Shown here one piece after another: positions 903-59,739 of a stretch of 64,000 nucleotides of DNA; the first letter of the stretch is position 1, and every line of letters begins with the position of its first letter. The notes beneath the pieces were generated by a model. It worked only from the letters and a program-made list of their open reading frames with translations, did no database searches and was not told where the DNA came from. This DNA is from Periplaneta americana (lineage: Eukaryota > Arthropoda > Insecta > Blattodea > Blattidae). The stretch is taken from assembly GCF_040183065.1 (NCBI RefSeq), contig NC_091132.1, forward strand, positions 160,167,602 through 160,231,601. Reading direction: 5' to 3'. Made by a program: the position numbers and the translations under genes.

Positions 903-995
903 CCCAGTTTCACATCTTACTATGGGAAAAGTGATCAGCACTGGAGATTCTTCAGATTTTCTCTCTGATAGGTTATCATAAATGTGGCTATCCAT
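903..995 (-). CDS. Linker exon N1 of a C2H2 zinc-finger gene
   Basis: On the minus strand an ATG at 995 opens 31 codons (MDSHIYDNLSERK... ending IVRCETG). They stop at a good splice donor, GG|GTGAGTGC, in phase 0. The paralogue at 30537-30629 has the same length, the same start codon and the same donor phase. The acidic SERKSEESPVLITF section aligns with the SEVKSEEDPEAISF section of the other linker exons in this window. By analogy these encode the disordered N-terminal part of insect zinc-finger proteins. I see no clear acceptor, so this may be a first coding exon. The zinc-finger exon it would serve lies to the left of the window. Confidence 0.6.
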
Positions 996-1338
996 CTTAA
1001 TCTCAATGCAACTGCGGGAAATTCTCCTTTTCAAAGTCACAAACACTTCACATAAAACATCGAGTTAGAAAGAGAAAACATGCAATCGACATTTTCGCAG
1101 TAGCTAATTGGCAGGAAGCCGACTGTAGTTAGGATCAGTGTTGCCAATGTTTGCAAATGGAATTACGTGCACAAAATCGTCAAATGACCCGATTTTGCAT
1201 CAAATATACTCTGCGTTTCAAAAAAAATTACAGCGAAGCATACAAATAAGAAAAATGAACACAAGTTGTACATTATGTTAAAATTTAAATTTTTTTGCTT
1301 ACCTAATCCGAGTTTCTTACTGTTGAACGAAGCCATAA

Positions 1339-1967
1339 GGGTAAGCGATCACTACATCGTATCGCAATCATCAGACGAATCGCACGGCTAGGAAAAAGAC
1401 TATTTTTGCTGTAATTGTCATGTAACCGCGTTCACTACATCGTATCGGACGCATCGCCTCTGGGCAAATCCGTCTACATTTCTCGGATGAGCAACTTTTC
1501 CGATGCGTCCGATCATGGCCTTCTTAATAAGTCAATTTTAATTGGTCAACAGTTACTATTATGTTGTGCCATGTACAGTGTCGCGCCAAAATGACAGACG
1601 GGAAACTTATTTCGCTTGTAGAATATTGGGAAGAATTATATAATTTGAGGCGTTCCCATTACAGTAATCAAGTCGTTTCTTAAATATATATTATTTAACA
1701 AATATATCTTTCGTTTCTTCCTCTTCAATTAAGACGCATGAAGCAATTACAAATTCTTATTCGCTAACAGACGTAATTAATAGACCTAACCTCAACTCCT
1801 CTGTATTCAGCAATGTCAATATCTTACGACGTCATGTTTTAATCAGCTGATAGGGGAATCCGGTAAGGCGATGATGTGGAGCCGTTAAAGTGAACGCACT
1901 GCACTTAAAATATCCGTTGCGTGCGATTCGTACGAGGAGTGCCATACGATGTAGTGAACGCTTACCT
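1339..1967. mobile_element. MITE with about 48-bp inverted ends, TAA target duplication (PIF/Harbinger-like)
   Basis: The left end GGGTAAGCGATCACTACATC pairs with the reverse complement of the right end, AGGTAAGCGTTCACTACATC. The pairing continues for about 48 bp with few mismatches. TAA flanks both sides (1336-1338 and 1968-1970). The matching block at 30950-30975 has one TAA and no insert, which is an empty site. The core TTCACTACATCGTATCG occurs a third time near 1430, inside the left half. There is no coding capacity. A 3-bp TWA duplication is the habit of PIF/Harbinger elements, so that family is the best guess. Confidence 0.85.
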
Positions 1968-1970
1968 TAA

Positions 1971-2700
1971 ATGTACACTGCTCAACATATCTGTCGTCGG
2001 TTCGAAGAAAACACACTTTGTTTTGACTTCTATTCACGAGGCGTTACAGCGTGAGTGGCAGTGAGATCTGTAATAAACTGAAGGCACTACCTGGATAAAT
2101 ATATAACCAATGTGGCATAATATTAAGCATGTATATAGACAACTTTTTTAAGATCTGAAGATGGCATAAATATGCCGAAAACGTTCATCAATAAAATGTC
2201 ATACATTAATACTACATTTTAAGATAAGCAATAGACGGCCCCATTCATTCCAAACCTATTATATTTAAAATAGTTTTCTAAAAGAAACACTTTTCACAGA
2301 TATCAAGCTTGAAATGGTTCTCGCCTATAGTGTTCATGGTTTATTAAAATACCAGACCAGGAGAAAACCACAAAAATCGCATTACAAAGGTTTCTTACAA
2401 TATGTTAGAGTACTTTGATAATTAAGATACATCTACTAGACAGACAAAGATGACAGCCATCACATTTAGGAGTTTCGTTGCCAGGGCGTAGGAAGAGTTA
2501 ATGGATTTTTACAGTTCTATGCGGAGAGAAGAATAAAATAATTGATATTAATACACAAACAATTTTTATTATTTCAAGGAAAATATATTCTTGATTAAAT
2601 AAGAATAGGTCATTAATTCTTGCATGAGAAACACTTGCCACAAACATAATCAAATTATATTAATTCAATATAAAAAACCCAAATCACACAACACGAACAT
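1971..2700. other. Non-coding stretch between block A and the zinc-finger exon
   Basis: The end of block A homology is followed at about 2262 by the start of block B homology, which pairs with 47269 onward. Around 2150-2215 lies a retroposon-like 3' signature (CTGAAGATGGCATAAATATG followed by a GCCGAAAACGTTC motif). Reverse-strand scraps of zinc-finger linker are already visible from about 2270. I see no gene. Confidence 0.5.
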
Positions 2701-4945
2701 TTGATATTTTTCTGTGACGAAGGTCGTGGATTTTTAGATTACCCGACTGAAAGCAACATTTACCACAAACATCAAATTTATAAGGTTTCTCGCCTATGTG
2801 CAGCGCCGTAGATGGGATTTTAATTTACGTAACTGCGAAAAATTTACCAGAAACATTACATTTGAAAGGTTTCTTGCCCCTGTGCAGTGCCGTAGATGGA
2901 ATTTTCAATTACGTAACAACCAAAAAACTATTACAATCATTACATTTGGAAGGTTTCTCGCCTGAGTGCAAGCGTAGATGGGATTTTAAATTAACTTCGA
3001 AAAACAAATACCACATAGATCACATTTGAAGGTTTCTCCCCTCTGTAGAGCCGTAGATGGGATTTTAAATTACGTAACTGCGAAAAACAATTACCACAAA
3101 TATCATATTTGAAACGTCCTCGCATGTGTGAAGTCGTAGATGGGATTTTAAATTCAGTAACTGCGAAAAACAATTACCGAATAATATCACATTTTAAAGT
3201 TTTCTCATCTATGTACAGTCGTAGATGCGATTTTAAATTACGTAACAGCGAAAAACAATCACGATAATAATCACATTTTAAAGATTTCTCGCCTGTGTGC
3301 AGTTGTAGATGGGATTTAAACTGCGAAAAACAATTACCACAAACATCACTGCCTGTGTGCAGTTGTAGATAGATTTTAATTACGCAACTGCGACAAACAA
3401 TTACCACAAACATCTCATTTGAAAGGTTTTTCGCCTGTATGTAATTGTAGACGGGATTTTAAATTACGTAACTGTGAAAACCAATTACCACAAACATCAC
3501 ATTTGAAAGGTTTCGTGCCTGAGTTGAGTTCTAGATGAGATTTTAAATTATGTAACACCGAGAAACAATTACCATAAACGTCTCATTTCAGAGTTTTCTC
3601 GCCTGAGTTGACTTCTAGTTGGGATTTTAAATTACGTAACAGCGAAAAACAATTACCACAAACATCACACTTGAAAAGCTTCTCTCCTCTCTGCAGGTAT
3701 TCATGGTATCATAGGCCTCTCAACTGAGAGATACACTAGCGACAAACACATTTGAAAAGTTTCACGCCCGTGCACTGCCGTACATGGGACTACGAAGTAT
3801 GTAGCAGACCACAAAATTGAAATTTGAAGTTAATATCTCCCGTGTGCCGGAGTTCATGGTATCTGATGCTACTCACGTTAGAGACACATTAACCATAAAC
3901 ATTACACTTGAAATGTCTCTCCACTGTGTGCTGGCATAATGGCTCTGTATGAATATTAACAGCAAAAAAATATTACCACGAACACATCATTTCAAATATT
4001 TGTAGACTGTGTGCCGAAGTTTAATGAAGTTTTACACTACTCGTATTACAGAAAGCCTTGTCACAAACAATACACTAGAAAGGTCTCTCCCCAATGTGCT
4101 GGCGCAAATGGCCTTTTAATGATTTTAACTTTCCGAAGCACTTAACACAAACATCGCATTTGAAAGGTTTCTCGCCTGTATACACGCCTTTACGCCTCTT
4201 CAGATGAAGTGAAGAGAAACTATTGCCACACCCATCACACTTGAAAGGTTTCTCGCCTGTATGCAAGAGTTTATGCGTCTTTAGGTAATTTGAACGCGAG
4301 AAACGAACGTCACACACATCACACCTGAAAGGTTTGTCGCCTGTGTGCACGCGTTTATGCCTATTCAGATGATGTGAAAAAGAGAAACGAATGCCACACA
4401 CACATCACACTTGAAGGATTTCTCGCCCGTATGCAGGACTTTATGCGCCTTTAGGTTATTTTTACGCGAGAAATGAATGCCACAAACATTACACTTGAAA
4501 GGTTTCTAGTCTGTATGCACGCGTTTATGAGACCTTAAATGGTCAGAACGCGAAACAAGATTGCCACAATGATTCCACTTGAACGGTTTCTCGCCTGTAT
4601 GTATCAGTTTATGCCTTTTTACGTTACTCGATTGCAAGCTCTTGCCAAAAAACATTACACTCGAAAGGTTTCTCGCTATTGTGCTGGCTTTCATGAGTTT
4701 TTAGGTAACTTGACCTTGAAAAACTTATTACAAACATCGCATTTGAAAGGTTTCTTGCCTGCGTCCTTGGGTGAATGTCCGCTCAAGTTTGCAGAATTCG
4801 AGACAGATATTTTAGACGATTCAGATTCGTATTTCTTTCCGTCTTCACGAGTCCGCGAAGGTTTTCCCGACGAACCTGAATTCTTGCGAATCTCACACAC
4901 AATCTCGTTGTCTTCAAGTAAAAGACTGTCGAATTCTGATGACAC
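2700..4945 (-). pseudogene. C2H2 zinc-finger terminal exon, broken copy
   Basis: The minus strand reads as zinc fingers joined by TGEKPFKCD linkers, but spread over several frames (pieces at 4691-4945, 4506-4694 and 4075-4401, then 2991-3413). The first piece carries the acidic leader SSEFDSLLLEDNEIVCE, which is also found in the intact paralogue at 48404-49438. Below 3700 come about eleven degenerate 84-bp units, with a repeated GTAGATGGGATTTTAAATTA core on the plus strand, at roughly 2806, 2890, 2972, 3050 and onward. Many cysteines, histidines and frames are lost. The intact version would be a nuclear DNA-binding protein. This copy looks like a pseudogene, although the fingers nearest the leader are only lightly damaged. 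The partner linker exons would be those at 23-31 kb. Confidence 0.85.
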
Positions 4946-5573
4946 GTTCCTCTCATTGGTTGCTGCAATCCTAAAGGAAAGATACTCTGAGTCTAGAAAA
5001 CAATCGCAACAAATTTACACACAATTAAATCAGGGATTGCAGAAACAGCACAAGTCACTATTTGTGGCGAAATGAGTTTATTCGAGTTCATGGACTGCAT
5101 ATATATGACTATCATTCCATGCTGAAACAACGTAAGTCAGTATGGCCGTCTCAAATTTGGAGACCTGAGAAATCCTGCAAACGCGCAAAAACAACACGTG
5201 TCAAAGACATGTGCGAACATATTGGTTCCGATTTCAGACTGCAGACATCTACGACACAAGGATACAAAAATTGATCCCACTGAATGACAAATGTCTCTAT
5301 TCTGGTGGTGAATACGGTGAAAAGAACTCAATAATTGCTGTACCTCTGCCAATATAACTTTTCATGAAATTTTGTTCTCTTTTTGTAAACAGCCCCAGAG
5401 AAATTAATTTTTACAGCCTTCGTAATTACGCTCGAGTGGCCAAAATTATGACGTCATTAAAATGATGGAAGGAAAAAGGACCAATTCTTTTAACTGTGGC
5501 CTTGAGATTGCTTGCTTGTAAGTACAAAGGAGAATATTTACCTTCTTCATTGGCATATTAACACAAAATCTTG

Positions 5574-6367: not shown

Positions 6368-9301
6368 CCGTAAAATGAGGTGAAGTTGACCACAGGGGTG
6401 AAGTTGACCACAGGGGTGAAGTTGACCAAAACTCCCGAATAAGTTTCAGAGGCCATTAATGCCCAGAAGTAAAATTTCTAATTTTTTCAAAAAATGGTAT
6501 TTTATATGTTGTACTTCTCTTTTCATATTTGACACATTGACAAAATTTTAAAATATGTTTCGTTTCAACTAGAATATTTTATTTAAGTCTACAATATTTA
6601 ACATTTTTTATACATGGGATAAACTTTAAAGCTGCAGGTGACTCCAAAGAGGATATTATCACACAACCATTGATTTCAGCATCTTTGAGCATCTCTGAAC
6701 ACACACATAATTTGGTTTCCTATCCTGAATTACTTAGTAGTCTACTGGAGGGAAAAATAAAAAAAAAGGGAAATTTACATGTTTCTAGGGGTGAAGTTGA
6801 CCACACTGTAGGAATTCACTGCATTTGTTATAGTACTGAGTATAGATACAATTTTGAGGTTAGAAAGTTATTTTTTTGCCCTTTTTTGTAGTCTCAAGAC
6901 AGTGTTAGTTGGAAATGCCTAGAAAGTATGTATCAGTTGGTAAACAGAACTGCCAATATAGTAAACAAGATTTAGAAGATGCTCTAAAAGACTATTTAGA
7001 TGGGAAATTGAGCATGAAACGGGCATGTGAGAAGTACCATATTCCAAAGGGAACACTTTTCAATAGGGTGCATGGATTGAAAGGAAAATCGTATGGTGGT
7101 CCAACGGTTTTTCAGCTGGTGAGGAAAATATAATGGTAAACTGCTTGCTGGCATGCGCATCTTGGGGTTTTCCCTTAAATACCCTTGATGTGAGGTTGTT
7201 TGCCAAGGAATATCTAGACAGAATAGGTAGGGAAGAAAAGAAATTTGTAAACAACATGCCTGGTGTTGAATGGGCTAAAAGCTTTTTGCAGCGACATTCT
7301 GAAAAATTGTCAGAGCGCCTGGCAAACAACATTAAAAGAGCAAGAGCAAACGTCAGTGAAGATGTAATTAGGGATTATCATGTAAATCTTTCTGACACAA
7401 TAGAAGGGTTACCAGCAGAAAATGTTTTCAACTACGATGAAAGCAACTTGTCAGACGACCCAGGAAGAAGCAAGATGATTTTCAAGAGGGGTGTTAAGTA
7501 TCCTGACAATGTTATAAATCATTCTAAGAGCTCCGTATCATTTATGATGTGTGTGTCAGCTGATGGAACTGCTCTTCCGCCATACGTGGTGTACAAATCA
7601 GTTCATTTATATGACACCTGGAGGGAAGGAGGACCAAAGGGAGCTCCATTTTGTACAAAACCATGCTGCAGTAGAGGGACACGTTACAATAGAACTTCTC
7701 ATGGGTGGTTTGATACAATCACGTTTGCAGATTGGTTCAAATCAATGTTCCTCCCACATGCTAGTCGTCTCCCTGGAAAGAAAGCCCTCATAGGTGATAA
7801 TTTATCATCACACTTTAATGAGGAAGTGCTTCAGCTGTGTGAAAAGAACAATATTTTTTTTGTATGTCTTCCAGCCAATGCTACTCATCTATGCCAACCT
7901 CTAGATATCAGCTTTTTTGGACCATTAAAGAAAGCATGGAGGAAAATCCTAAACAGCTGGAAGAAATGTCACTCCAAGCACTCTGCTGTGGAAAAGAGCT
8001 TGTTTCCAAAGTTGTTTAAACAGTTGTTCAATGAAGTGCCAAATATGCACCAGAATATTATCAGTGGCTTTGAAGCCACAGGAATCCATCCTCTGAACTT
8101 AGATAAGCTCTTAAAAAGAATTCCCAGGAAGGAAACACTCACACCTTCGAAACACCCTGACACTCCTATGATGATAACAGAAACACTTGTAGAGTTTTTG
8201 AGCCAGCAGCGACATCCAGTGCACACTTCATCAGGTTGTAATACAGAGAAGAAAGCCAGAAGACGACTGACATTGACTCCTGGTCAATCAGTTGCATCAG
8301 AGGACTCTCCTCTGAAGAATAATAGTGCCACTTCAATACCAGTATCCAAGCAATCAGGATCAGCTAGAAAGTTATTTGTTTCTCCTGGAAAGTCATTGAC
8401 ACTGACTTCCAACACAAGAAGAGCTGCCGAAACTGCTCAAAAAGAACCTCCACATTCTGCAACAGTGCCGAAAGAAAATGACTTTGTGTTGGTGAAATTC
8501 AAACAAACAAAAAGTGTCCTTTATTATGTGGGTCAAGTCATGGGGAAGATGAATGAAAGTGGTGACCTGGAAGTCAAATTCATGCGCCGTAGTAATAAGA
8601 TTCCAGGTTCATTTCATTTCCCAAATGTGGAAGATATTTCTTTCGTAAAATTTGATGATGTAGTGAGAGTATTAAGTGAGGTTTCTGCTCCTAAAAGGCT
8701 AACCTCACGACAGAAATCATATTTTAATTTTGTGTTAGATGAGGACAATGTTCACTGAAATGTAAAAGTGGAACTGGCTTCGTAACACCTACTCACACAC
8801 GGTACCGGTATTTTATTGTAATTATAAATTTGTTTAAAATTTTCTAATGTTTTTAATGTGTTTGAAGTCAATTATGGCACTTTTCTTAGAAATTGCTCTG
8901 TTAAAATTCAAATTTCAATAAAAATTACGTTTGATAAGGTATTATGTGTTGTGTATAGGTACTGGGTACTCTTTTCTTGGTGTTTTAATCACTGTGGTAT
9001 AAAAGCAATGGTTAACCTTCATTTTCATAAGGTCACCTTCATCCCATGCCTTAAAGAACTTATTTCTACATGAAATACTTATGTGTGGTCACCTTCACCC
9101 CATGCGGGGAGAAGGTGACCAAATAATGTTTTTTTAAAATTAAGACTACTTGTAATAGCGAAAGTATGTTTGCTCTGATTAAATTCTATTCTTCAGATAC
9201 GCACCTTTCTTTATATGCTTTTACAAAAAAAATTAAAAAATAATCCTGAACGCCACAGTTATGCAAAGTTCAGAATTGGTCACCTTCACCCCGTTTTACG
9301 G
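6368..9301 (+). mobile_element. pogo/Tigger-like transposon, 2934 bp, nested in the mariner
   Basis: The inverted ends of 24 bp begin CCGTAAAATGAGGTGAAG on the left. The reverse complement of the right end begins CCGTAAAACGGGGTGAAG. TA is duplicated at 6366-6367 and 9302-9303. The orthologous position in B' has a single TA at 50797-50798 and no insert, which proves the boundaries. Copies of GGGGTGAAGTTGACCACA follow the left end in tandem and recur near 6788. Inverted relatives (GGTCACCTTCACCCC) sit near 9030, 9089 and 9279. These are probable transposase-binding sites. It inserted after the segmental duplication. Confidence 0.96.
6915..8758 (+). CDS. pogo-like transposase with one frameshift
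   Basis: The ATG at 6915 starts MPRKYVSVGKQN. It follows a strong acceptor-like tract (TTTTTTTGCCCTTTTTTGTA then G at 6891), so a 5' UTR intron is possible. The N-terminus has a pipsqueak/CENP-B-type helix-turn-helix (SKQDLEDALKDYLDGKLSMK... HIPKGTLFNRV). A one-base shortening of the T run at 7108-7112 breaks the frame. The open part continues from 7133 for 541 residues. A Tc5/CENP-B HTH spans residues 20-75. A DDE_1 catalytic core follows, with D102 (NYDES), D222 (GDNLSSH) and D258 (QPLDISF), giving a DD35D spacing. The last 100 residues (FVLVKFKQTK, YYVGQVMGKM) resemble a small SH3/Tudor-like barrel. A polyadenylation signal AATAAA lies near 8917. Only one break is evident, so the copy is young. 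Confidence 0.93.
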
Positions 9302-14260: not shown

Positions 14261-15743
14261 TGTGTTTATGTACAAGTATATGTATCTTTCTTGCAACATT
14301 TCGTAACGCAACATAATTCATGTAATTTACATATAGTACATATAATTTTCGCCTAGAAGAATATGCTATATTATTTAACGTGAAATACTGTTAATTTATA
14401 CAGAAACAGCCAAGAAATTATAAGTGTATAATATCACAAATATTTCAAATTTAAAATTATTATTATTATGCCTTATTCCTTTGTCTTTTGTAGAAGTTGT
14501 TTTATAAAATCATTATACTTTTTTATAGCTAATTATTATTGTGCATGACGTATCTCAGGAACAAAGAACATAAATTGTCTGTTTATTATGATTGTGATTT
14601 CCTGTACAACTACAATCCCTAACTGACTGTAACAAGTTGTACAACCCTGCCTGTACGCAGGGTAGTCGTACAGTTATGTGCAGTCTTTTACACAGAACCA
14701 CGCGGCTATCCTGTTACTTCAAATTCTTAAGTTGCTGTGCTGATTTCGTGACAGCACTGCTCTAAACTCTCTATGTGTGAGAAATATTGGAGAGTAAGAA
14801 AGTTAATGGCTTTACTGCTAAGTTCTCTGGATTAGTTAATAACAACACCAACAGTTTTTTTTGTGTAAGTGGGACAGTAGGGCTAGGTCTACATACTCGA
14901 AAAGTACAGAGTGGCGAAAAGAAAGAAATCAGAACCTGGTGAAACAACATTTTTCAACATCAATCGTATGTATTATTGTAATTATATTTATAGTGGCGTG
15001 AAAGTCACAGACTGATCCTTTAACTACGCAAGATTTCATGAACGAAAGGACAAACAAATAAATAAACAAACAAACAAGAAAATAAATAAATAAAATGAGA
15101 AAATCAATGCTACACAGAGAGTTTGTACACATGATAACTGGTACACAGAAAAACTCTTGGAATGGACTCAAAATGGTACTTCATAATTTCTTAGAGAATT
15201 AGAAGGTCCTCAATTATAAAGAAACTGTATGAATTAAACTGGAGTGTTTCAAGACCCTGGGCTGCAATATGAGTGTAAAGGTCCACTTCTGGCATGTACA
15301 TCTACATTATTTTATTGAAAACCTAGACACTTTTAGTGAAGAACAACAAGAAAGGTTTGAACAGTACTTATGGAAACCAGAAACCAAGGGAAGTGGAGTG
15401 TGAATGTGATAACTGATTATTGCTGGACGATTCAGACAGACAGTTCTCCTGTAAAAACTTCCACACAGTCAAGAAAACGGAAACTTCAAACACAATGAAC
15501 TCTTTACGTGAAGACTCACACATCACACTCACCTTTCGGTCAAAACCTCGTTGTCCTGTGCCGTTACTTCTGCCCTTGGCTCCTCATTCACTGTGTGCGA
15601 GTCAATCTGCTCTTCCTAAAAATACAGAGCAAATAAAACAGAAAGATAGCACAATTTACACTGACAAAAGCGCATCGATTTTAGAAACCACAGAACAGCT
15701 TATGAATGGTACTCGGCCCAGTAGAATTTCACCTAACAGAAGA
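14261..15743 (+). pseudogene. Unassigned transposon ORF remnant (first copy)
   Basis: From about 15100 the plus strand spells, over several frames, a recognisable ORF tail: TLGCNMSVKVHFWHVHLHYF, then ENLDTFSEEQQERFEQ and ITDYCWTIQ. The pattern HFLHxHLxxFPENLGxxSEEQGERFHQD is one I know from many arthropod repeat proteins but cannot assign to a superfamily. The 15420-15842 frame continues the region without motifs. B' has the same remnant around 54305-54690. The 14261-15090 part shows nothing else. It does contain a small stretch near 14620-14710 that B' lacks. Confidence 0.5.
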
Positions 15744-23296: not shown

Positions 23297-23434
23297 CTCT
23301 GGTTCACGTTTCACCACAGGGAATGAAATTGGCTCAGGATCTTTCTCTAATTTTATCTCAGATGTGAGATCTGGGCTCTGGTTCACGTTTTCCTTCTTTC
23401 TGCCAGTCACATGTAGATTCAAGAAATTCCTTTC
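23297..23434 (-). CDS. Linker exon E2 of a zinc-finger gene
   Basis: On the minus strand an acceptor (GGAATGCAG|GAAAGG) and a donor (CCAGAG|GTGAGTGC) bound 138 bp. This makes 46 codons, phase 0 at both ends: ERNFLNLHVTGRKKENVNQS, then PDLTSEIKLEKDPEPISFPV and VKREPE. The B' counterpart at 59602-59739 has the same length with intact splice sites. The acidic KxEP motif fits the linker region of insect C2H2 proteins, which is transcribed as separate small exons before the finger exon. Its natural downstream partner here is the broken finger exon at 2700-4945. Confidence 0.78.
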
Positions 23435-26689: not shown

Positions 26690-27828
26690 ATTGTGCATAT
26701 TTTGTAGCATATTTTCAAGATTGTGTTGTATTAACCCAAAAATTTGAACAGTTTTGTAAAAAAAAAAAAAGAATACAATAAGAATCGGGACTGTTCTGTT
26801 GTTAGCACATAGTATCTTTTGGTCGAATGTTCTCGATTGCCAAAAATTCCTTGTGCATGAAGAGAAACTGCGGGAAAACCACCACTGCCTGATATTGTTT
26901 CATTGAACACTTGCACAAAAATAAACTTTCACAAGCATTCCTACCTAATTGACTCTATCATCCCTGCCCTTCTTTTACATGTTTCACTTATTCTGAGCTG
27001 GTGCAATAGCATCATTTTTTTTAAATTTAGAACCTATTCTGGAATCGACTCATATTCAGCTACATAATTTATCATAAAGTAACAAAATATCTTTTCACAA
27101 TGGGTGAGACAATGTTCTATAAAGAATATATTGAAAATAGGTACCTAAATACATAGAGACAATGGGTGACAAACAAATGACGACAGGTGATAATGTATGT
27201 ACATACATCTAGAACATAATCAATTACTTGGAAACGGTAAAAAGTGTTAAGAATATTACAAAAAGACACAGAGAAGACAAAAAGAAGTCGTGTGCTTAAG
27301 AACATTTTTTAAACAAACTGTAGGAGTGTGTAACGGCGAAACAATTAAGAATAACGTAATAAGCAACTTCGTTTTCACATTTAAGCATAAAACAAGATAA
27401 CTCTCCAAAATTAGTTCCTTGCAACATGACATAACTTGTAATAGTAAATGTGATAAGTGTCTTTTGTCTCTATCACAGAGTAAAATTCACTGCAAGGACT
27501 GTTGTAATGAGGTAGTGTCCGTAACAATCAAAATACAATATAAACAATGGAAGAAGAAAACACAGTGCATTCCTTGTGCACCACTTACCTCTGATTCACG
27601 TTTCACCACAGGGAAAGAAATTGGCTCCGAATCTTTCTCAGATTTCACTTTAAATTTGAGACCACGGCTGTGCTCAGCATATTCCTCCTTTACACAAGTC
27701 AAAAGATTCTGTTCCTGCAGTAAAACGAGACAATTTAATTGGACACTTTGGGTTTCTTTTATTACTCGACCGAGGCGAGTGCAGCCGCGGGCGAAATGTG
27801 AACTATCGCAATGACGTATTACCAACAC
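26690..27828. repeat. Paralogous intron-plus-exon block carrying exon E3
   Basis: This stretch parallels 21390-21940 joined to 23220-23720, and also 59000-60000. Shared pieces include AAAAGAAGTCGTGT, GCAACATGACATAACTTGTA and AAAATACAATATAAACAATG. A third, shorter version lies at about 28300-28830. The linker exons were therefore duplicated together with about 0.5-1 kb of flanking intron. Confidence 0.75.
27589..27714 (-). CDS. Linker exon E3 of a zinc-finger gene
   Basis: The minus strand reads TTTTACTGCAG|GAACAG at the acceptor and TCAGAG|GTAAGTGG at the donor. They bound 126 bp (42 codons, phase 0 at both ends): EQNLLTCVKEEYAEHS, then RGLKFKVKSEKDSEPISFPV and VKRESE. It is four codons shorter than E1, E2 and E4. 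Splice signals and frame are intact, so it could be used as an alternative to E2 or E4. Whether it is transcribed cannot be told from sequence. Confidence 0.75.
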
Positions 27829-28647: not shown

Positions 28648-28785
28648 CTCTGGTTCACGTTTCATCACAGGGAACGAAATTGCCTCCGGATCTTCCTCAG
28701 ATTTCACTTCAGATGTGAGATCATGGCTTTGGTCAACATGTTCCCCCTTAATACGAGTCGCATTCTGATACAGAAGATTTCGTTC
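28648..28785 (-). CDS. Linker exon E4 of a zinc-finger gene
   Basis: The minus strand shows acceptor TTTTATTGCAG|GAACGA and donor CCAGAG|GTTAGTGG around 138 bp (46 codons, phase 0): ERNLLYQNATRIKGEHVDQS, then HDLTSEVKSEEDPEAISFPV and MKREPE. The donor GTTAG is slightly weaker than those of the other copies. The exon aligns end to end with E1 and E2. It sits about 0.9 kb upstream (in the minus sense) of E3. Confidence 0.75.
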
Positions 28786-29635: not shown

Positions 29636-31090
29636 TTGTATTAATGGAATAAGGACTCAAAATTAAGCACAGAGAAAAAAAGTATAATGAAAAAATACAC
29701 ATTTTTCGAAATGTAACTTCGTTTGTACATTCCCCACTAGGATAACTTCTCAGTCATCAGTATTGACAACGTCACTAACAAAATGTCACCACCACACCAC
29801 CTTAAAAGACTGCACTCAATCACTTGTCACCTTCTAAGAAGCTAACTTAATCTACCTAATAATGATGGTATTACCTTGTAGACTACGGTCATAGAGTATA
29901 CTGATTTTTTCCTAAATCTTTACAACTGCGTTATCTTAGGAAGGAGAACAGCAACAAAAGGCATATTCTTAGTCAATTTTGAGTATATGCAAACCCTACC
30001 AAGAGCCTAAATTAACCTAACATAACCTGTCACCGATTCATAAATGCAGAACACAACAAAAGCATTAAAATAACCTAACCTGTCAGAGCTTCGTATATGC
30101 AAGGCATACCAAATGCATTAGGTATCCTAACCTAACTATTAGATTCGTAACAGAAATACGAAAGAACTGTATCGTGATATTAACACAATATAAAAAAAAT
30201 TGAAGTGCACGCTAATATGAAGCTTTCTAAGTTATGTTGGTGTGAAGAAGGAAACAGTTGTAAAACAGTTGAAGATGTATACGCAGTAAGGGAAGTGAAA
30301 TATCCATTCGATATTTTTTTCCAAAATGACAAGAATTTAACAATATACACCTATTACTTGAACAGTGTCTTATATAAACAAAATGAAGGACCATATAAAC
30401 AGTTAATTTATTTCAAAGTAAATTAATCAAATTGCGGTTGAAATCTACGACATAGTAGAGGAAACAATATTACTATTATAATCAGGATACTGAAAAAATT
30501 ACTTATAGCTATTCCATGCGGAAAGGCAGCACTTACCTCAGTTTCACACCTTACTATGAGAAAAGTGATCAGCACTGGAGAATCTTCAGATTTTCTTTCT
30601 GATACGTTATCATAATTGTGGCAATCCATTTTTATCTCAACGCAATTGCAATAATTTCTTCTCTTCTAGGTCTCAAACACAGCACACAAAACATGCGATC
30701 GGCACTTTCGCGGACCTCAACTGTAGTATCAGTGTTGACAATGCTTACTAATGAAATTACCTACACGAGATCGTCAAATGACCCCATATAGCACCAAAAT
30801 ACCCTGGGTTCAAAAAATAAATACAGCGAACAACGAGTTTTTCCTACTCGTTGACAGCGAAGTATACATAAAGACAAATCAACACAAATTATACATTATG
30901 TTAAAAGTGAAACTTTTTTTGCTTGACGAATCTGAGTTTCCTGGTGTTGAACGAAGCCATAACGGTGCAATGCTTATCATATATTCTGTCGCCAGTTCGA
31001 AGAAAAAACACCTTTACTTGTCTTCTATCCTGTCCTTTGCATTCATCAATGCTACCATTTTTTCTGTTTTCAGCCTGTTCCTATGAGCGG
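29636..31090. repeat. Block A of the tandem unit (second copy)
   Basis: This pairs with 1-2050 in the same orientation and lacks the 629-bp MITE. It carries exon N2. The offset of 29635 bases between the two A copies gives the length of the older repeat unit. Confidence 0.85.
30537..30629 (-). CDS. Linker exon N2 of a zinc-finger gene
   Basis: On the minus strand an ATG at 30629 opens 31 codons: MDCHNYDNVSERKSEDSPVL, then ITFLIVRCETE. They end at GAG|GTAAGTGC in phase 0. It is the same length as N1 (903-995). Upstream in frame is VEIK, and I find no convincing acceptor nearby, so the ATG may be the true start of a protein whose later exons lie to the left (E4, E3, E2, then fingers at 4945-2700). 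Compatible donor and acceptor phases allow that chain. Confidence 0.6.
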
Positions 31091-36463: not shown

Positions 36464-36577
36464 CTGTGATTCACGTTTCACCACAGGGAACGAAATTGGC
36501 ATTGGATCTTCCTCAACTTCCACCTCAGACGTGAAAGCTTTTCCCTGGTTCACATATTCTTCCGAGTAATAAGACAT
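36464..36577 (-). CDS. Linker exon E5 of a zinc-finger gene (5' part diverged)
   Basis: The donor TCACAG|GTGAGAGG is intact on the minus strand. Reading back from it gives MSYYSEEYVNQGKAFTSEVE and VEEDPMPISFPVVKRESQ, 38 codons from an ATG at 36577. The upstream acceptor found in E1, E2 and E4 is not recognisable, and an in-frame stop lies just before the ATG. It is either a first coding exon or a decaying copy. It belongs to the same family as E1-E4 and lies between the two finger exons. Confidence 0.55.
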
Positions 36578-48403: not shown

Positions 48404-49438
48404 TCATTTCAAATGTTTGTCGCCTGTGTGCCGAAGTTCATGGACTTTTATGCTACTCATATTACAGAAAGTCCTACCACAAACTATACACTTGAAAGGT
48501 TTCTCCCCTGTGTGCTGGCGCAAATGAGATTTTAATGTTTTTAACATTGCGAAGCACTTACCACAAACATCGCATGTGAAAGGTTTCTCGCCTGTATGCA
48601 CAAGTTTATGCGTCTTCAGATGATGTGAAAGAGAGAAACGAATGCCACAAACATCACATCTGAAAGGCCTCTCGCCTGTGTGCACGCGTTTATGCCTCTT
48701 TAGGTCACTTGATTGAGAGAAACGAATGCCACACACATCACACTTGAAAGGTTTCTCGCCTGTGTGCCGGCGCATATGGGCTTTTAATGTTTTTAACATT
48801 GCGAAGCACTTACCACAAACATCGCATTTGAAACGTTTCTCGCCTGTATGCACGAGTTTATGCGTCTTTAAATGATGTGAATGAGAGTAACGAATGCCAC
48901 AAACATCACATATGAAAGGCTTCTCGCCTGTGTGCACGCGTTTATGCCTCTTTAAGCTACTTGAATGAGAGAAACGAATGCCACAAACATCACACTTGAA
49001 CGGTTTCTCGCCTGCATGCATTAGTTTATGCATTCTTATGCTACTCGATTGCAAGCTCTTGCCACAAACATTACACTTCAAAGGTTTCTCGCCTTTGTGC
49101 TGGCGTTCATGAGTTTTTAGGTAACTTGAGCTTGAAAAACACTTATTACAAAGATCGCATTTTAAAAGTTTCTTGCCTGTATCCTTGGGTGAAAGTCCGC
49201 TCAACTTTGCAGAATTCAAGACAGATATTTTAGACATTTGGGATTCGTATTTCTTCCCGTCTTCACGAGTCAGCGAAGGTTCACCCGAGGAAACTGAATT
49301 CTTGGGAACCTCACACAGAGTCTCATTCTCTTCAAGTGCAAGACTGTCGAATTCTGATGACACATTCCTCTCATTGGTAGCTGCAATCCTAAAGGAAAGA
49401 TACTGTGAGTCTACACAACAATCGCAACAAATATACAT
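48404..49438 (-). CDS. C2H2 zinc-finger protein, terminal exon, nine fingers
   Basis: This is a 344-codon open frame on the minus strand. Residues about 25-90 are an acidic, disordered leader (SSEFDSLALEENETLCEVPK). Fingers begin at C94, C122, C149, C177, C205, C233, C261, C289 and C317. They are joined by TGEKPF/TGERPF linkers, typical of sequence-specific DNA binding in the nucleus. Finger 2 has 11 rather than 12 residues between its second cysteine and first histidine. The ATG at 49438 may not be the real start: in-frame CAG|TATCTTTCC near 49407 would be a phase-0 acceptor matching the phase-0 donor of linker exon E1 at 59602, across a 10-kb intron. Regulation is unknown. The target sequence cannot be told by eye. 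Confidence 0.85.
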   Translation of the reverse strand: MYICCDCCVDSQYLSFRIAATNERNVSSEFDSLALEENETLCEVPKNSVSSGEPSLTREDGKKYESQMSKISVLNSAKLSGLSPKDTGKKLLKCDLCNKCFSSSSYLKTHERQHKGEKPLKCNVCGKSLQSSSIRMHKLMHAGEKPFKCDVCGIRFSHSSSLKRHKRVHTGEKPFICDVCGIRYSHSHHLKTHKLVHTGEKRFKCDVCGKCFAMLKTLKAHMRRHTGEKPFKCDVCGIRFSQSSDLKRHKRVHTGERPFRCDVCGIRFSLSHHLKTHKLVHTGEKPFTCDVCGKCFAMLKTLKSHLRQHTGEKPFKCIVCGRTFCNMSSIKVHELRHTGDKHLK

Positions 49439-50718: not shown

Positions 50719-51268
50719 CTAGGATCACGTCAAGTGTCATGCACAACATTTATTTAAAAATTAGGTTTTTGTCCTACAGCTCTGTTATTTTCACAGTATG
50801 TAAATACATTCTTTCGGCACAAAATATCTCTTTTCCACATCATCCCCGTCCCTTTCAACTGTCTTACGCCACCTTTGAACGAGGGTTCGTATACCTGAAC
50901 GGTAAAAGTATGGACCAACATGTCTGAACCAGACTTTACCAGCGTGCACGAGGGAGTCGTCATCTTCAAACCTCGTTCTGCGAAGAGATTCTTTCAATTT
51001 ACCAGAGAGATGTTAGTGGTATGGTTCCAGATCGGGACTGTAAGGCGTTTTTGAGTGTTATCCATCCAACTTTTCTGATCTGGTCTGTGGTCCTGTGACT
51101 GACTGCGTTGTCGTGCAATAGGAGAACATTATGCTTCTCCTGATGTGGTCGTACACGACTCGGTTGAGCTTGAAGTTTCTTTAGAATTAATGGTGGTTCC
51201 GTGTGGCATGATGTCCACAAGGGCCCTCCAGAATCGAAAAAAAAAACAGTAGTCATAGCTTTTCCTGA
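50719..51268 (-). pseudogene. mariner remnant (second copy), truncated
   Basis: The right end lies after TA at 50717-50718 (CTAGGATCACGTCAAGTGTC). The transposase C-terminal section (near 50850-50900) and the middle section match the first copy. The element is cut off at about 51268 by the deletion that joins it to piggyBac sequence. TA at 50797-50798 is the unoccupied pogo target. Confidence 0.85.
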
Positions 51269-51269
51269 T

Positions 51270-52170: not shown

Positions 52171-54304
52171 GAGTAGAACAGTATGAAAGAATGAACGATT
52201 TTGAGTGTTTGTTTGATGAATACAGTATAAGTTTGGTTCAGTGTCTCTTATGAGCTTCCCCTGTTACTCAACTCTAGCACTTGATTAGGGTTGATCTGTT
52301 TCTTACGCTATTAGTGATGTTGTTTAAGGAAAGAGGCATTCCAAATTTTTTAGAATTTCGAGTCTTAAGTATATGCAGATGTTGATCAGCCTCATTTTTG
52401 ATAATGGAAAATAAACAGGCAGGACAAATTAATGAAACCATTCGGAATAACAATTACTATATACAGCACGGCACAATAAAGAATCATATTATAGGTCACT
52501 AATGATTTCACATTATAGAATATATGCTTCACAGCAAAAAGTATGGGTCGACTCTTGATAGTTAGAAATTCTAAGTTCTACGAGCATTTCACACTTGTTA
52601 ACGAACTGCACTTAAAGGTTTTGCTCTTCTGTTTGTTTATTGAAACTCGTCCGTCTACAATGTAGGTAACCATACGAGGTGTGTGTGACGTAGGGATAAG
52701 ATGTCTGCTTTTCCTACAATGGCTTGTGTGCTGACCTCCTAGTAGCGTAAAATTATTCTGTATTTTAGGTTTAATTAATTAATTTTAAATGTTACATGGC
52801 GTTTGTTAATAAACTTTGTGACGTCTGTCTTGTAAAATATTACTGCCCAACAGCTGTAGGCTCTTAATAGGTAAGACCTGGTCTTTATAAACAAAATCAA
52901 TATTTGTTTCAGTTCCTAAAGGAATAAAAAACACGTCAGACATAAATAAACAAAAACAAATATATAAAAAAAGTCTATGTATTTAACAATAATCCCATTT
53001 AATTTTATACCTACAAACACTTGAACAAAAATTTGAATTATTTCTTCACCATTTTGTCCAGTGTGCTGTCTGCAGGAAGAAATGGATTAGAAACATTTAC
53101 AGCGATGTCCAGCCCTTTCGTCTAAACTAGCGACATCATCCCACTCTCGTTCTCTTACTGCTGTTCAATTTCCTTCCAGCACAGCACGCGCTCAAACCTT
53201 ACCTCCCCTGATATCCCTCTGCTACGTGCAGTTTTATGCCAGACGTCATAGCAAAGTACATATTTAATACAGTGCATCACTCGACTTCCTGCTAAAAAGT
53301 AAAGAGCATTGAAGTAATCATCACATTATCTTCAATTAATGAAATTTTTACTTTTTACTTTAGAGAATGAAATAAAAATATGTTTCAAAAGTAATATCAA
53401 TGTACGGCAGTACATAGAGGTATAACCAGTTTTTTTTTTTTCATGAAACTTAACAAATATTAGCTCTTGTGATATAAGAAAATGGTTTTCGACATTATAT
53501 GTAAGCATTGCAATTGCAACAAATAAACAAAGAAATAAAAGCTTACGAAATAATTACTTTTCTTTGTTGTTCATTTTGTGCATGCATTTACATACCAGTA
53601 TATGCCTCTTTCTTCCAATGTTTCTTGACAATATAATTCAAGTACAGTACGTACAATTTTAGCCTAGAAGAATATGCTATATTATTTAACGTGAAGTACT
53701 GTTAATTTATAAAGAAATAGTCATAGAAACATAATTATATAGTAACCCAAATATTTGAATTTTTAAATAATTATTATGCCTTATTCATTTGTCTTTTGTA
53801 GAAGTTGTTATATAAATTCATTACACCTTTTTTTTACTGGTGATCATTATTATTCATTACGTACCTCAGGGACGAAGAACATAAATTCTCTCACTTATGT
53901 GATTGTTATTTCCCGTACAATTACAATCCCTTACTCACTGCAAACCCGTGACTTCAAAATCACAAGTTCCTATGCTGACACTGCTCTAAACTCACTATGT
54001 GTGAGAAATATTGGACAATAAGAGATTATTGATAAGAACGCTGCATTAGTTAATAACAACACCAACGTATTTCTTATGTGGATGGGAGAGTAGGGCTAGG
54101 TCTGTACATTGGAAGACGAAACAGTGGCCACACAGAAAGAAATCAGAACCTGGTGAAACAACATTGTTCAAGAACCATTGTATGTATTAATGTAATTGTA
54201 TTTCTAGTGGTGTGAAAGAGATAGAATAATGCCCTTAATTACACCGGAATGCATGAACGAAAGAACAGACAGACACACGAACAAACAAATAAACAAAGGA
54301 ACAA

Positions 54305-54690
54305 ATGAATAAAATGGGAAAGATAATTTTACACAGTGAGTTTGTAAACGTGATAACTGGTCCACAGAAAAAGTCTTCCAATGCACTCAAAATGGCAGGT
54401 CATAATTTCCTAGGGAATAAGAAGGGCCTCAATTATAAGGAAACTGTAGAAATTAAATTGGAACATTTGAAGACCCTGGGCTGCAATATGAGTGTAAACG
54501 TCCACTTCTTGCATTTTATTATTATTTTACTGCAAACCTAGACACTTTTAGTGAAGAACAAGAAGAAAAGTTTGAACAGTACTTATGGAAACCAGAGACA
54601 AAGGGAAGTGGAGTGTTAAAGTGGTAACTGATTATTGCTGGGTGATTCAGACAGACAGTTCTTCTGCAGGTGCTTTCAACAGTAAAGAAA
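54305..54690 (+). pseudogene. Unassigned transposon ORF remnant (second copy)
   Basis: Frame 54305-54541 reads ITGPQKKSSNALKMAGHNFL, GNKKGLNYKETVE and KTLGCNMSVNVHFLHF. The next section (TFSEEQEEKFEQ) follows in another frame. These fit the order GPQIRxL...NFLGNxKAxNYxExV...LGCxMSxKxHFLHxHL...FSEEQGERFHQD of a widespread arthropod repeat protein. The superfamily is not known to me. Confidence 0.5.
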
Positions 54691-55214
54691 ACGAAACTTC
54701 AAACACAATGAACTCTCTACGTGAAAACTCACACACACACTCACCTTTCGGTTAAAACCTCGTTGTCCTGTTCCGTTACTTCCCCCCTTGGCTCCTCAAT
54801 CTCTGTGTGCAAGTCACTCTGCTCTTCCTAAAAATACAGTACAAATAAAACAGAAAGATAGCACAACTTACATTGACAAAAGCGCATCGATTTTAGATAC
54901 CACAGAACAGCATATGGATCATACTCGGCCTAGTAAATTTCACCTAACAGAAGACAATTGTTGACACAGATTTTACAAGGCGTATTTCTTTTCAATGAAG
55001 AAGAATACTTCTGAAATAATAAATAGGATTATACCTCACCGTAATCCTTTTGTTACTATTTTGGTATGTAATCCCAGATATATACCAGGACGGAAATTTC
55101 AAGGGTCGTAGGAGTGATTTTGGCCTATAAAATACAAATAAATGAGATAATTGTATAAGCACCTATATACCATAGTAAAATATTTTCAATTTTATATGAA
55201 TTAATTTTTATTTA

Positions 55215-55840
55215 CCTGGCTCCCATTGGACTTAAAACCAATGCTTACATTTAAACTCAAGAGTAGAGGTGTTGCTGATGGAATAAAATTTTTTCGACAA
55301 ACGGAGTCGGTGGGTTTTGAGGCCTCTGAAAGTACTAAAAAGTTCATAAAAATTTAAATACAGTTTCAAACAGATTAAATTCACGCATACCATCAAAGCA
55401 TTCTACAAGAATGATGACTCACACAATATCCACGTAATTTTCTACAGCTTCTAAAAACTACCAGCAATAGTTTCGCATCTTCTAGAACAATGGAATCCCT
55501 GTTACTATCCATTCTGAGTCCTCTGCAACTAAGTGAATGGCTAGAGGACAAAGGGTACAAATATATTTTGACGTCTAAACTTAGCCAAGATCCTTTTGAA
55601 CGCCATTTAGGGATTTTGTGGTCTTTCACCTGTGACGAACACCCATCTGTAGTAAAGTTTCTTTATTTACATTTACTGTAGTGTATTTACGTCCCTATTA
55701 AGCAAACTTTGTCATCTGGAGGGAACTGTGAGTTTAGAGTTGATACACCACTCACTTCTTGTGTAAATCAAATGCGACTACTTGCTAGAAAAGAAGAGCA
55801 ACGTAATAAGGACTTATCAGATATGTGGAATCATCACTGA
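55215..55840 (+). pseudogene. P-element/THAP9-like transposase remnant (second copy)
   Basis: Pieces in order are GVADGIKFFRQTESVGFEAS, then (frame 55490-55681) LSEWLEDKGYKYILTSKLSQ and DPFERHLGILWSFTCDEHPS. After a stop come VPIKQTLSSGGNCEFRVDTP and NQMRLLARKEEQRN. LTSKLxQDPxExxxGIxxS...HP is the hallmark of the P-type C-terminal region. It is uninterrupted by the 1.0-kb insertion seen in the first copy. The N-terminal THAP domain was not found. Confidence 0.72.
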
Positions 55841-57139
55841 AAGATAGGATTATATTTCGGGAATAGAAACCACATTATCAAGATTGGAAGAGTTCATGGA
55901 CCAGAATTATAAATATCTTAATACTAGAGAGAGATGTTTATTAACAATTTGGTTAGATACGTGCTAAAACATTCTACCAATTTATTCATTGTAAACTATG
56001 AGCACAACTTTTTCGTGAACAAAGTCAAGTGCCCACAAGTGATTCCAACCTTAGTGAAATAAGAGATTTCGGCTCCAATAGTGGCATTTCCTTTTTAACT
56101 AGGCCATCCCTAATTGTTTACGAAGTTTTTCTTCAGACTGAAATCAAAATAAAACAAAAACTGCATTCTGAAAGTGAAATGTAGAGTGACTTTTTTTTTA
56201 GAGCTTAGACAGTGAGTTGCAGTTTGGAACATAAAAAAGATGCAATTTCAAAACCATTATTACATTACATGAAGTGCAGATTCTTCTTCCGAGTGGAAAA
56301 ATATTCGCAGAGAACTGCAAGCTTAGAAATCACCACGTCAACTAAGTTTCGAAATATTCACATAAGTTGTCTCGGTAAGTCACCACCACCATCGCCACCA
56401 CAGCCGCCGCGACCACCACCACCACCATTATTATGCTATACAAATATTTTTTCCGTTTTTCCATTGGTGGCAAATAGCAAAATCTTACTATAATAGTGCA
56501 CATTAGTGTAAGAACCAAGAATATCGTAACCAGGTATTTTAACAGCCCAAAAGTACAAAAGCGCTCTGCTGCGGTTATTCCATGCATTAACGTGAGTCGG
56601 GACACTATGTACTTCTATCTGCCCACACTGTGTTTACTGTAGAATGACTTGAGCCGCATTCGCTATTCTGCCGCACACCAGCAGATCTCTAGGGTGTGGG
56701 ACGGCAAAATGGTGGGGAATGGCTGGTATATAATAACTCTTTAACTACTATTTAATAGCAAAAATTATCTATGAACGAATAACTCAATTTCAAGTCACTA
56801 ATTTGGTGGACTTTGTAAGTGGCTTATTTTACGACAGTTTATCAACTCCAATGGATATCTAGTGTCTGGGTAAATTGAAGGTGATAATGCCAGCAGAATG
56901 ATTTCAGTGTTCAGCGGCGGAAGTTACAAAGCATTTGCTCACAATGGGTTAAGAAATAGACTCAGAAGAAACTTCAACCAGGTTACTTGTCCCATCCAGT
57001 ATTTGGACACTGGTTAGCTAGGTTAACGGTCAGACATGCTAATTGTAACTCCACATCTTTGGACGAAATTGGTAAAATCCCCATTTTTCTGACAATGTCG
57101 CATACTATGTCATTGTCAAGCCACAAATTTTTGCATTAA

Positions 57140-57677
57140 CAGGTGCAAGTGAAATAGCCTTGCAAACTTTCAGAGTGAATAGCTCATGTTGTATGTAACA
57201 ACAAACTATATCATATTGGTGGAAATTTCATAGTTTTTTTCATAAAACAAATGTTATTTCCCAAATGTTTAACAACCTCTTACTCGGTAACTATTGTGAG
57301 TAAGATCGTGATTTTTGATAGGATATCTAATAAAGAATAATTTATCCCTCTGGCCTATTTGAATAGCGTGGACGGTTTTTGTGTAAACTTAATTTTAAAA
57401 ACCTCTAATTTCAAGCCACTGCACGAATCAAACTAGTGGCAATGTCGAGGCAGAAAGCAGTTCACCTACCCAAACACACCGAGTTCATTGAGCTCTTACA
57501 TCTGCATCATGAGTGGGGTGTTAGCGACGATGATTGCATACTGCTGAAAATACAAACTTAGTTCTTTTATTAACCGTGCATTTAATCACAAACCGTAATA
57601 TAGATTTTCTATTCATTTATATGTACCAGTACCGTATTGTACTTTTCAATCTGCAAGGTTATTTCACTGCCATTCTG
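57140..57677. mobile_element. Tc1/mariner-type MITE (second copy)
   Basis: Same element as 19235-19764, with the left end lightly damaged (CAGGTGCAAGTGAAATAGCC) and the right end intact before TA at 57678-57679. No coding capacity. Confidence 0.75.
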
Positions 57678-58078
57678 TAAATGATCTGGTTCGGTTTGCT
57701 CTTGATAGTAATTATGTGCTTATAATACCAGCAGTTAACAAATATATTCTATCGATAATTAAATGTTGCGCATATTTACATAACAATGTTAATAATGTCT
57801 AATTTATTCCAGTTCTGCTCCATTATTTCTGCCAGGCAAAATCATGTATCATATAATTACACTAAAGTACACAAAAATTCCTATGACATGACCATAATGA
57901 TCATTATATCGTAGAGAAAAAATTTGGTAGAAAATTTGTTCAACCATTTCGTCAACTTGATGACTTTCCTGAGAATTTTAAGTAAGTTGGAATCTACTCA
58001 TAAGAAGTAAATGAAAAATTGAAATATATAATGTTTAGTTTTAGTAATTTCAAAATCGCCAATTGAATTTTGTAATTT

Positions 58079-58947
58079 TACTCAAATAACAAAACATGCA
58101 AATGTTCAGTCTTTTCACTTATTTTAATGTAAAATACTGAAATAATTATTTTACAATTGCATTAGTGTTAACGTTTTTGCCCAATTGTGGGCATCTTTAG
58201 ACATAAAATTTGACATCTATAGAATATATAAGCAATACATATTAATATTGAAAAATATAAAGACATGTCCAAGGTTAAAATAATGGAAAATGATATAAGT
58301 TTAAAAATACTATAAAAGGCATCATTACATGTGGTGTATACAATTATGCATATTTAAATAAAACGGCATATGAAAGAAAATAATACGAGTTATTATTATT
58401 AATTGGTGAACTGGAATAACATCAACTGATTTGTAGGAATGACACCGTTATGAATAAATACTTATTAAATATGCATATTTTTACATGTGTACTAGGTTAA
58501 CATGTGTAAAATAAAATAAAATGTGTGGTATGAAAAAGATCTTGTAGTTCAAGAATATGGTATATGAAATAAGGAACAAATATACATTAAAAATAAACGT
58601 AATGTAAAGTAGCTGGAAAATATGACCTTTTAAACTGGTATACAAAAATTTTTAAAGTAATAAATTTTGGTAGAAAAAAAATGAATGTAAATTAAATTCT
58701 ATGGATTGATAACCATTAAATAAATGTGAGTTGGCATAAATGGCTAATATTCAAACTCAATTGTACCTGAAAAAGCTTTCGTGGATTACATTAGAAATGA
58801 AATTTAGGCTGCATTATATATTATGTTATTGGGTACAGATTAATGTAGCATATTAATGAAGCAGGATAATGTAAAATAACTATTTCAGTATTTTACATTA
58901 AAATAAGTCAAAAGTCTGAACATTTGCATGTGTTTTCGTTTGAATAA
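58079..58947. mobile_element. Long-TIR element (second copy)
   Basis: Inverted ends around CAAATGTTCAGTCTTTTCAC on the left and its near reverse complement at about 58905-58924. The interior is AT-rich. It lacks the SINE of the first copy, and TATAAAAGGCATCATT at 58311-58326 is the empty target. Confidence 0.7.
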
Positions 58948-59601
58948 ATTTGACTTATTGTATCTCAAAAATGAATTCAAAGTTTGTAATTTTACGTTTC
59001 TCTACATATTTATCTGAATATTTTGTAAATTTTATAACCTACTCTGGAATCCACTCAAAATTAGCTACATAATTTATCGCGAAATTACAAAATATGTTTT
59101 CTCTACGGGTAAGATACAGTAATGTTCCACAAAGGATAAGTTGTCAATACGTAAATACGAAAAAACATGGGTGCAAAACAAAGAGAGGTGATAATGTTTG
59201 TAACCATATCTAAAACAAAGTCAATTATTTGAAAATAATGAATAGTGTTGGGTATTTTAGACAAAGACGCAGAGAAGACAGAAAGAAGTCGTGTAATTAA
59301 AAACAACATTTTTCAAACGCAATGTGGGAGTGTGTAGCTTGGGAACCATTAGGAGTACAGTAAGCATGACTAGCAATTTTGTTTTCATATTTAAAACATA
59401 AACAGAGATAACAGTTGAACATTAGTTCTCTGCAACATGACATAACTTGTAATAGTAAATACTGACAACTGTTTTTTAGTCTCTATCGTAGAGTGAAAGG
59501 CACTGCAAGTACCGTTATTAAGACGTAGTGTCCGTTATAATGAAAATACAATATAAACAATGGAAGAAGAATAAACAGTGCATTCCTTGTGCTCCACTCA
59601 C

Positions 59602-59739
59602 CTTTGGTTCACGTTTCACCACAGGGAACGAAATTGGCTCCGGATCTTTCTCTAATTTTATAACAGATGTGAGATCAGGGCTCTGGTTGACGTATTCCTT
59701 CTTTATGCCAGTCACATGTTGATTCAAGAAATTCCTTTC
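59602..59739 (-). CDS. Linker exon E1 of the intact zinc-finger gene
   Basis: The minus strand shows acceptor TTTTTTAATGCAG|GAAAGG and donor CCAAAG|GTGAGTGG around 138 bp (46 codons, phase 0 at both ends): ERNFLNQHVTGIKKEYVNQS, then PDLTSVIKLEKDPEPISFPV and VKREPK. Strong splice sites, an open frame and a position upstream of the intact finger exon on the same strand make it the likely penultimate exon of that gene. The first exon would lie beyond the window or in unrecognised sequence. Confidence 0.8.

Follow-up and report, generated by a model that had tools for sequence, protein, structure and literature searches.

A 64,000-nucleotide stretch of the Periplaneta americana genome (C16:160167602-160231601; hereafter, the window) carries seven related exons on its minus strand, together with two exons that encode C2H2 zinc fingers. 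A preliminary description of this stretch regarded the seven as a possible array of mutually exclusive or cassette exons that changes an acidic linker in front of one constant finger domain, and the question raised by the locus is whether these exons do form a single array or are divided among several genes. We consider it very probable that the locus consists of head-to-tail copies of one C2H2 zinc-finger gene with a recurrent exon grammar, in which the repeated linker exons would encode an arm carrying candidate SUMO attachment sites. The genome searched comprised 3,231,669,367 bases in 91 records; the report on the PAMFEO1_priV1 assembly of P. americana gives 3.23 Gb and 91 scaffolds (PMC12774602). 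The window was extended by 100 kb on each side, and positions in the resulting 264-kb stretch are numbered on from those of the window.

Probable head-to-tail copies of a zinc-finger gene

All seven exons were recovered on the minus strand, and their lengths, phases, and splice sites agree with those previously assigned. E1–E4 are 126–138 bp long and have an open frame, phase 0 at both ends (0-0), an AG before them, and a GT after them, and N1, N2, and E5 have, in the alignment, a common 3′ half and a phase-0 GT donor. When we considered 25 linker exons (eight local linkers and 17 picked from the best matches elsewhere), the assigned frame was free of stops in 25 of 25, whereas neither of the other two frames was open in any of them, indicating that the open frames of the seven exons are not due to chance. 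The linkers are acidic and lie upstream of the fingers, and their 0-0 phase means that one linker could be skipped with the frame kept; on these points, the preliminary description was accurate. The exons, their phases and splice sites, their positional relationships, and their repetition across the genome are read directly from the DNA.

In the gene plan that we propose, a start-codon exon of the E5 or N type would be followed by at least one 0-0 linker, an 83-bp adapter exon, and a finger exon, and the linkers would be spliced in series to yield an N-terminal arm of repeats of approximately 46 residues, with three linkers each in genes B and C. Gene B spans 84.4–48.4 kb and gene C spans 36.6–4.7 kb, both on the minus strand. 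Gene B runs from E5b (84410-84297) through an N exon (77355-77263), in which the donor reads AT instead of GT and is therefore lost, to the linkers at 75492 and 66742, E1, the adapter, and the fingers, and gene C runs from E5 through N2, E4, E3, E2, and the adapter to the broken finger exon (Table 1). A comparison of the sequence with itself yielded eleven colinear pieces between 2481-25599 and 47364-61886, with 79–89% identity, and the same exon order recurs across the 264-kb stretch.

The two finger exons differ in their condition, as previously described: the exon at 49 kb is intact and that at 4.97 kb is broken, with eight versus zero perfect fingers in frame. When gene B was joined, six exons gave a single open frame, 531 residues long, in which three linkers follow one another; its finger exon encodes the eight perfect C2H2 fingers in this frame and two further perfect ones beyond them in another frame. 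Pfam searches of 48404-49447 returned PF13465 (2.4e-66) and PF00096 (1.3e-35), identifying this region as C2H2 zinc fingers. The joined gene C terminates after 292 residues, and its perfect fingers occur in other frames, at 4493, 4323, 4158, and 4074. Judged by these frames, gene B looks usable and gene C looks broken in its fingers. A third copy, D, consists of N1 and a single linker at -881 to -1018 (L019); with these queries, no adapter and no finger exon turned up ahead of the next start exon, which is of another type, at -14645, and copy D thus looks incomplete.

An adapter exon restores the reading phase

The adapter follows the last linker and precedes the finger exon; it is entered in phase 0 and left in phase 2 (...ACC GAA AG|GT), and the finger exon begins with a phase-2 acceptor (TTTAG|G ATT GCA). 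This exon had been overlooked, and junctions of linker donors with the finger exons had been expected instead. Because a linker leaves phase 0 and the finger exon accepts phase 2, such a direct junction is out of frame and reaches a stop at the sixth codon (DCSYQ-stop in gene B and DCSNQ-stop in gene C), so that the adapter is required. The earlier list of exons was right in its seven members and incomplete, with the two adapter exons of the window and further exons outside it absent. In ten adapter exons fetched elsewhere in the genome, AG and a phase-2 GT were present in all ten, and the phase-2 junction was likewise present in all ten finger exons fetched elsewhere, as AG|G in nine and AG|A in one. 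An upstream AG of the finger exon (TAG|AC in the window copies, phase 1) was considered as the acceptor and rejected, because it was absent in two of the ten copies (L072 and L078), whereas the phase-2 AG was retained in all of them. The adapter is also of practical use, since gene models that join linkers directly to fingers would be out of frame.

Linkers pair by position within the genes

In a phylogenetic tree constructed from 28 linkers and their 100-base flanks, in which 13 of the 25 inner branches were poorly supported, E2 grouped with E1 and L145 (100/99), E3 with L66 (100/100), and E4, weakly, with L75 (88/53). The linkers thus pair by their position within the gene, which is the pattern predicted by the duplication of whole genes. 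The order E5, N2, E4, E3, and E2 between the two finger exons had been given correctly, and the idea of a single array before one constant finger domain did not survive: genes B and C own separate adapter and finger exons, E1 precedes the intact fingers of gene B, the five exons from E5 to E2 precede the broken fingers of gene C, and N1 opens copy D.

Two kinds of start-codon exon

The description of the seven as linker exons holds for their paralogy and their common strand and fails for the identity of E5, N1, and N2, which are, on the conservation of their first codons, start-codon exons. In the coding part of E5, the ATG and the next bases, TCTTAT, were conserved in 12 of 12 aligned copies (E5, E5b, and ten genome relatives taken from the best 40 of 376 candidates), and the possibility that E5 is a linker without its 5′ half is ruled out by this retention of the ATG and its context. 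In the N exons, ATGGA was conserved in all nine copies found by BLAST in ten loci, a count that takes in N2 itself and at least three neighbours, with N1 included. Because the start codons of both types are conserved, genes B and C each appear to have two kinds of start exon, and these could represent alternative promoters.

Selection on the exons

The pooled ratio of nonsynonymous to synonymous substitution rates (dN/dS) of the eight local linkers was 0.52 (bootstrap range, 0.33–0.84), and that of E1–E4 alone was 0.50 (0.31–0.89). In these codon-substitution comparisons, of the kind suggested earlier, the pooled local linkers exclude a dN/dS of 1, and the comparisons of E3 (0.93 and 2.07) have ranges that span it. 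We also made 15 comparisons of exons with their flanks, leaving out flanks that differed by 40–54% and were probably not homologous. The difference was 2.9% in the exon versus 11.6–12.8% in the flanks for E1/L145, 2.2% versus 28.7–30.2% for L66/Lm881, and 5.4% versus 14.7–15.9% for N2/N77. The linkers appear to be moderately constrained, and the adapter and the start of the finger exon show little visible constraint, since their differences have no excess at third codon positions and purifying selection was not seen there. Constraint in gene C may also be relaxed, as would fit the broken state of its fingers.

A large family across the genome

Copies of these exons were collected as the best 150 of 1375 candidates for linkers, the best 150 of 303 for adapters, and the best 150 of 265 for finger starts. 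Among these best-scoring matches, 149 of 150 linkers had no stop and one had a TAG, no adapter had a stop, and one of 150 finger starts had a stop; the weakest adapter matches are unsure, with E-values near 1–2 (weakest, 1.9). Most of the places listed were on C16 (124 linkers, 116 adapters, and 115 finger starts) or on C17 (24, 29, and 30, respectively). Among the listed places, the nearest finger start on the same strand within 30 kb of the 150 adapters was downstream in 88 cases, upstream in 21, and absent in 41, and the nearest linker was upstream in 77, downstream in 22, and absent in 51. Linkers that were fetched individually, including two pairs with identical proteins, had both AG and GT in 18 of 19 cases, with L042 lacking the AG.

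At one place, L039 (C16:182961900-182964500), three linkers with identical proteins are spaced by 852 and 861 bp, and the list includes a fourth place after another 859 bp. These closely spaced copies indicate that the number of linkers changes via local duplication. The surrounding stretches of 800 bases at L039 are 92–99.7% identical, a very recent multiplication of the exon, and this is a good site at which to look for alternative splicing. Identical linker proteins also occur at distant places: L048 and L049 lie at ~180.1 Mb of C16 and ~0.56 Mb of C17, and L050 and L051 lie at 159.9 and 179.8 Mb of C16. Several listed places at 180–181 Mb of C16 have a twin of equal score on C17 below 1.1 Mb, and these twins may have arisen by recent duplication of a large segment or may reflect redundancy in the assembly.

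Our search of the literature on zinc-finger expansion, exons, or alternative splicing in Periplaneta found nothing on this family, and a wider search on cockroaches, termites, Blattodea, and C2H2 expansions, judged by title, found nothing on cockroach zinc-finger exons. What had been misread as a splice array provides the exon grammar of a very large cockroach zinc-finger family.

A predicted SUMO arm

The linkers are rich in the motif psi-K-x-E, with 79 sites in 28 linkers, a sample of 10 local linkers and 18 best-scoring matches that are related and favour such a pattern. Four rows were removed before counting: L049 and L051, whose proteins are the same as those of L048 and L050, and all but one of the three copies at L039. 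The sites were concentrated in alignment columns 12 (24 of 28 linkers), 27 (24), and 41 (27), with four more in column 23. In 2000 shuffles of the residues, the expected number was 4.8 (standard deviation, 2.1), and none of 5000 column shuffles, which allow for the relatedness of the linkers and not for the choice of the sample, reached 79; in this sample, the SUMO-acceptor consensus is both conserved and more frequent than expected by chance. psi-K-x-E is given elsewhere as the SUMO attachment consensus, and such sites are described as synergy-control motifs, which dampen transcription on multiple response elements (PMC3373386).

From the motif and its conservation, we infer that the repeated linkers may form a SUMO-dependent repression arm. 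Each repeat would offer up to three candidate lysines for SUMO, the arm would recruit SUMO-dependent repressors to the DNA picked by the fingers, and the SUMO dose would depend on how many linker exons a gene has. Pfam was also run on the N-terminal portion of gene B and on that of one neighbouring gene, each joined from its exons other than the N-type start exon; no family rose above its cut-off, so neither a KRAB nor a ZAD domain was found in these parts. A broader proposal, which we offer as rather doubtful, is that a repression arm arose within a large cockroach zinc-finger family itself, from a duplicable, symmetric 46-residue exon with three SUMO-acceptor lysines, the gain, loss, or skipping of which tunes the SUMO dose and, through it, how strongly rapidly diverging finger arrays silence. 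If true, this would give insects a counterpart to KRAB, one whose output could be counted. What most merits following up in this work is the countable SUMO-consensus arm encoded by these exons.

Alternative explanations

In the reading closest to the preliminary description, the exons form a mutually exclusive cluster, with one of E1–E5 used per transcript before a shared finger exon. They are homologous exons of equal phase on one strand, but two finger exons and two adapter exons split them into separate genes, so that they do not share the constant exons of one gene, and the linkers group by position across the gene copies. No mechanism of exclusion by frame or short introns is visible either: the introns of 0.9–8.6 kb (933 bp for E4–E3 and 4154 bp for E3–E2 in gene C; 8612 and 6865 bp between the linkers of gene B) leave no steric block, and the frame cannot enforce exclusion because all the linkers are symmetric and double inclusion keeps the frame. 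Nothing that we saw supports mutual exclusion, which we regard as extremely improbable. The use of linkers as cassettes within each gene, in which inclusion or skipping alters the length of the arm, is a more serious candidate and may come on top of the tandem-gene structure. The local linkers are all 0-0, with lengths that are multiples of three, and their number varies from three in genes B and C to one found in copy D, with multiplication at L039; however, the same symmetry is expected equally of always-included exons that multiply by duplication, and we judge cassette use to be possible, if somewhat doubtful.

The whole locus might also be dead, as a set of tandem pseudogenes that appear open through recent duplication or gene conversion. 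The broken fingers of gene C, the AT donor of the N exon in gene B, and the lack of an adapter and fingers in copy D, as far as searched, are what such decay would leave, and E2, E4, and N2 diverge at the pace of introns in some comparisons. In the adapter and finger exons, moreover, the differences are not enriched at third codon positions. On the other hand, gene B is open across six exons, the exons of E1/L145 and L66/Lm881 differ far less than their flanks, and the dN/dS of the eight local linkers excludes 1. A dead locus therefore seems to us quite unlikely.

Several results nevertheless weigh against the reading of the locus as head-to-tail genes with a constrained linker arm. The dN/dS was 0.61 (0.38–1.04) for 17 family exons, 0.93 (0.54–1.74) for E3 versus the family, and 2.07 (0.51–6.24) for the E3/L66 pair. 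Three exon pairs were no more alike than the introns: E4/L75 differed by 12.3% versus 9.8–10.3% in the flanks, E2/L145 by 8.7% versus 7.5% in the upstream flank, and N2/N160 by 9.7% versus 7.3–11.0% in the flanks. The adapter differences fell mainly at second codon positions in three comparisons (6 of 8, 4 of 5, and 5 of 9). Over the initial 221 bases of the finger exons, the three codon positions differed about equally often (8, 10, and 7; 7, 9, and 8). The genome-wide list of linkers consists of top-scoring candidates, which favours intact copies, and the linkers chosen for the motif count came from its upper end. Searches for spliced retrocopies belong here too: with a joined protein query of 146 residues, none of the best 150 of 2246 matches spanned two exons, although some extended up to 13 residues beyond an exon end, and with a joined DNA query of 301 bases, each of the best 40 of 746 matches was confined to a single exon and ended no more than ~10 bases from its edges. 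The retrocopy searches say nothing either way on splicing.

Neighbouring copies and mobile elements

Upstream of gene B, the minus strand carries an N exon (160386), then a linker (145900) and an adapter (141028); no finger exon was found between this adapter and the next start exon, which is of another type and lies at 130124. The gene that starts at 130124 goes on with two linkers (127277 and 122852), an adapter (111071), and fingers (103933). Its finger exon (L012, 103933-102828), that of the next gene upstream, is open, with nine perfect fingers ahead of the first stop, and the linkers that precede it, L127 and L122, are of a different subfamily.

Table 1. Positions of the exons in the window and of further exons outside it
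Feature	Position	Strand	Remarks
E1, third linker of gene B	59602..59739	-	138 bp, 0-0, AG/GT, open; groups with E2 and L145 (100/99)
E2, third linker of gene C	23297..23434	-	138 bp, 0-0
E3, second linker of gene C	27589..27714	-	126 bp, 0-0
E4, first linker of gene C	28648..28785	-	138 bp, 0-0
E5, start-codon exon of gene C (coding part)	36464..36577	-	phase-0 donor, ATG conserved
N2, second kind of start-codon exon, gene C	30537..30629	-	phase-0 donor, ATG conserved
N1, start-codon exon of copy D	903..995	-	phase-0 GT donor
Adapter exon of gene B	54745..54827	-	83 bp, phase 0 in, phase 2 out
Adapter exon of gene C	15533..15615	-	83 bp, phase 0 in, phase 2 out
Finger exon of gene B	48404..49388	-	phase-2 acceptor, stop 48406-48404
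Finger exon of gene C	4691..4970	-	phase-2 acceptor, stop 4693-4691
Further linkers outside the window	66742, 75492, 145900, -881	-	same kind
Further start exons outside the window	77355, 84410, 160386	-	
Further adapter exons outside the window	111071, 141028	-	

Candidate mobile elements and repeats lie within and between these genes. The last intron of gene C contains an open frame of 563 residues on the plus strand (7067-8758) that has a DDE_1 transposase domain (PF03184, 5.8e-23), as well as a segment (13856-14261) that matches its own reverse complement at 79.5% and is perhaps a hairpin-type mobile element. A 287-bp unit is tandemly duplicated with 99% identity at 15743-16318, ~130 bp upstream of the adapter of gene C. 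Between genes B and C, an open frame of 401 residues with a reverse transcriptase domain (PF00078; 45515-46720, plus strand) is probably a long interspersed nuclear element (LINE)-type element, and a frame of 272 residues at 40387-41205 (plus strand) has a DDE_Tnp_1_7 transposase domain (PF13843), which we take to be of the piggyBac type.

Comparison with known systems

The KRAB-ZNF genes of mammals and the ZAD-ZNF genes of flies are clustered C2H2 genes with an N-terminal effector arm. The cockroach genes resemble them in their tandem copies, their single exon with many fingers, their short upstream exons in the position of an effector, and the loss of some copies; unlike in those families, the cockroach arm is composed of repeated exons of equal phase rich in psi-K-x-E, and Pfam detected no KRAB or ZAD domain in the parts searched. 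The psi-K-x-E lysines, which lie outside the DNA-binding domain, are reminiscent of the SUMO synergy-control motifs of the glucocorticoid and progesterone receptors, and the proline-flanked form of that motif fits 17 of the 28 linkers. In contrast to the receptor motifs, the candidate cockroach sites mostly number three per exon, and the exon itself is duplicated. In genes of the Dscam type, tandem duplications of exons have yielded mutually exclusive exons, and the cockroach exons share with these the adjoining arrangement of homologous exons of equal phase; they differ in that they are split among genes and are symmetric, with no exclusion by frame or by a short intron.

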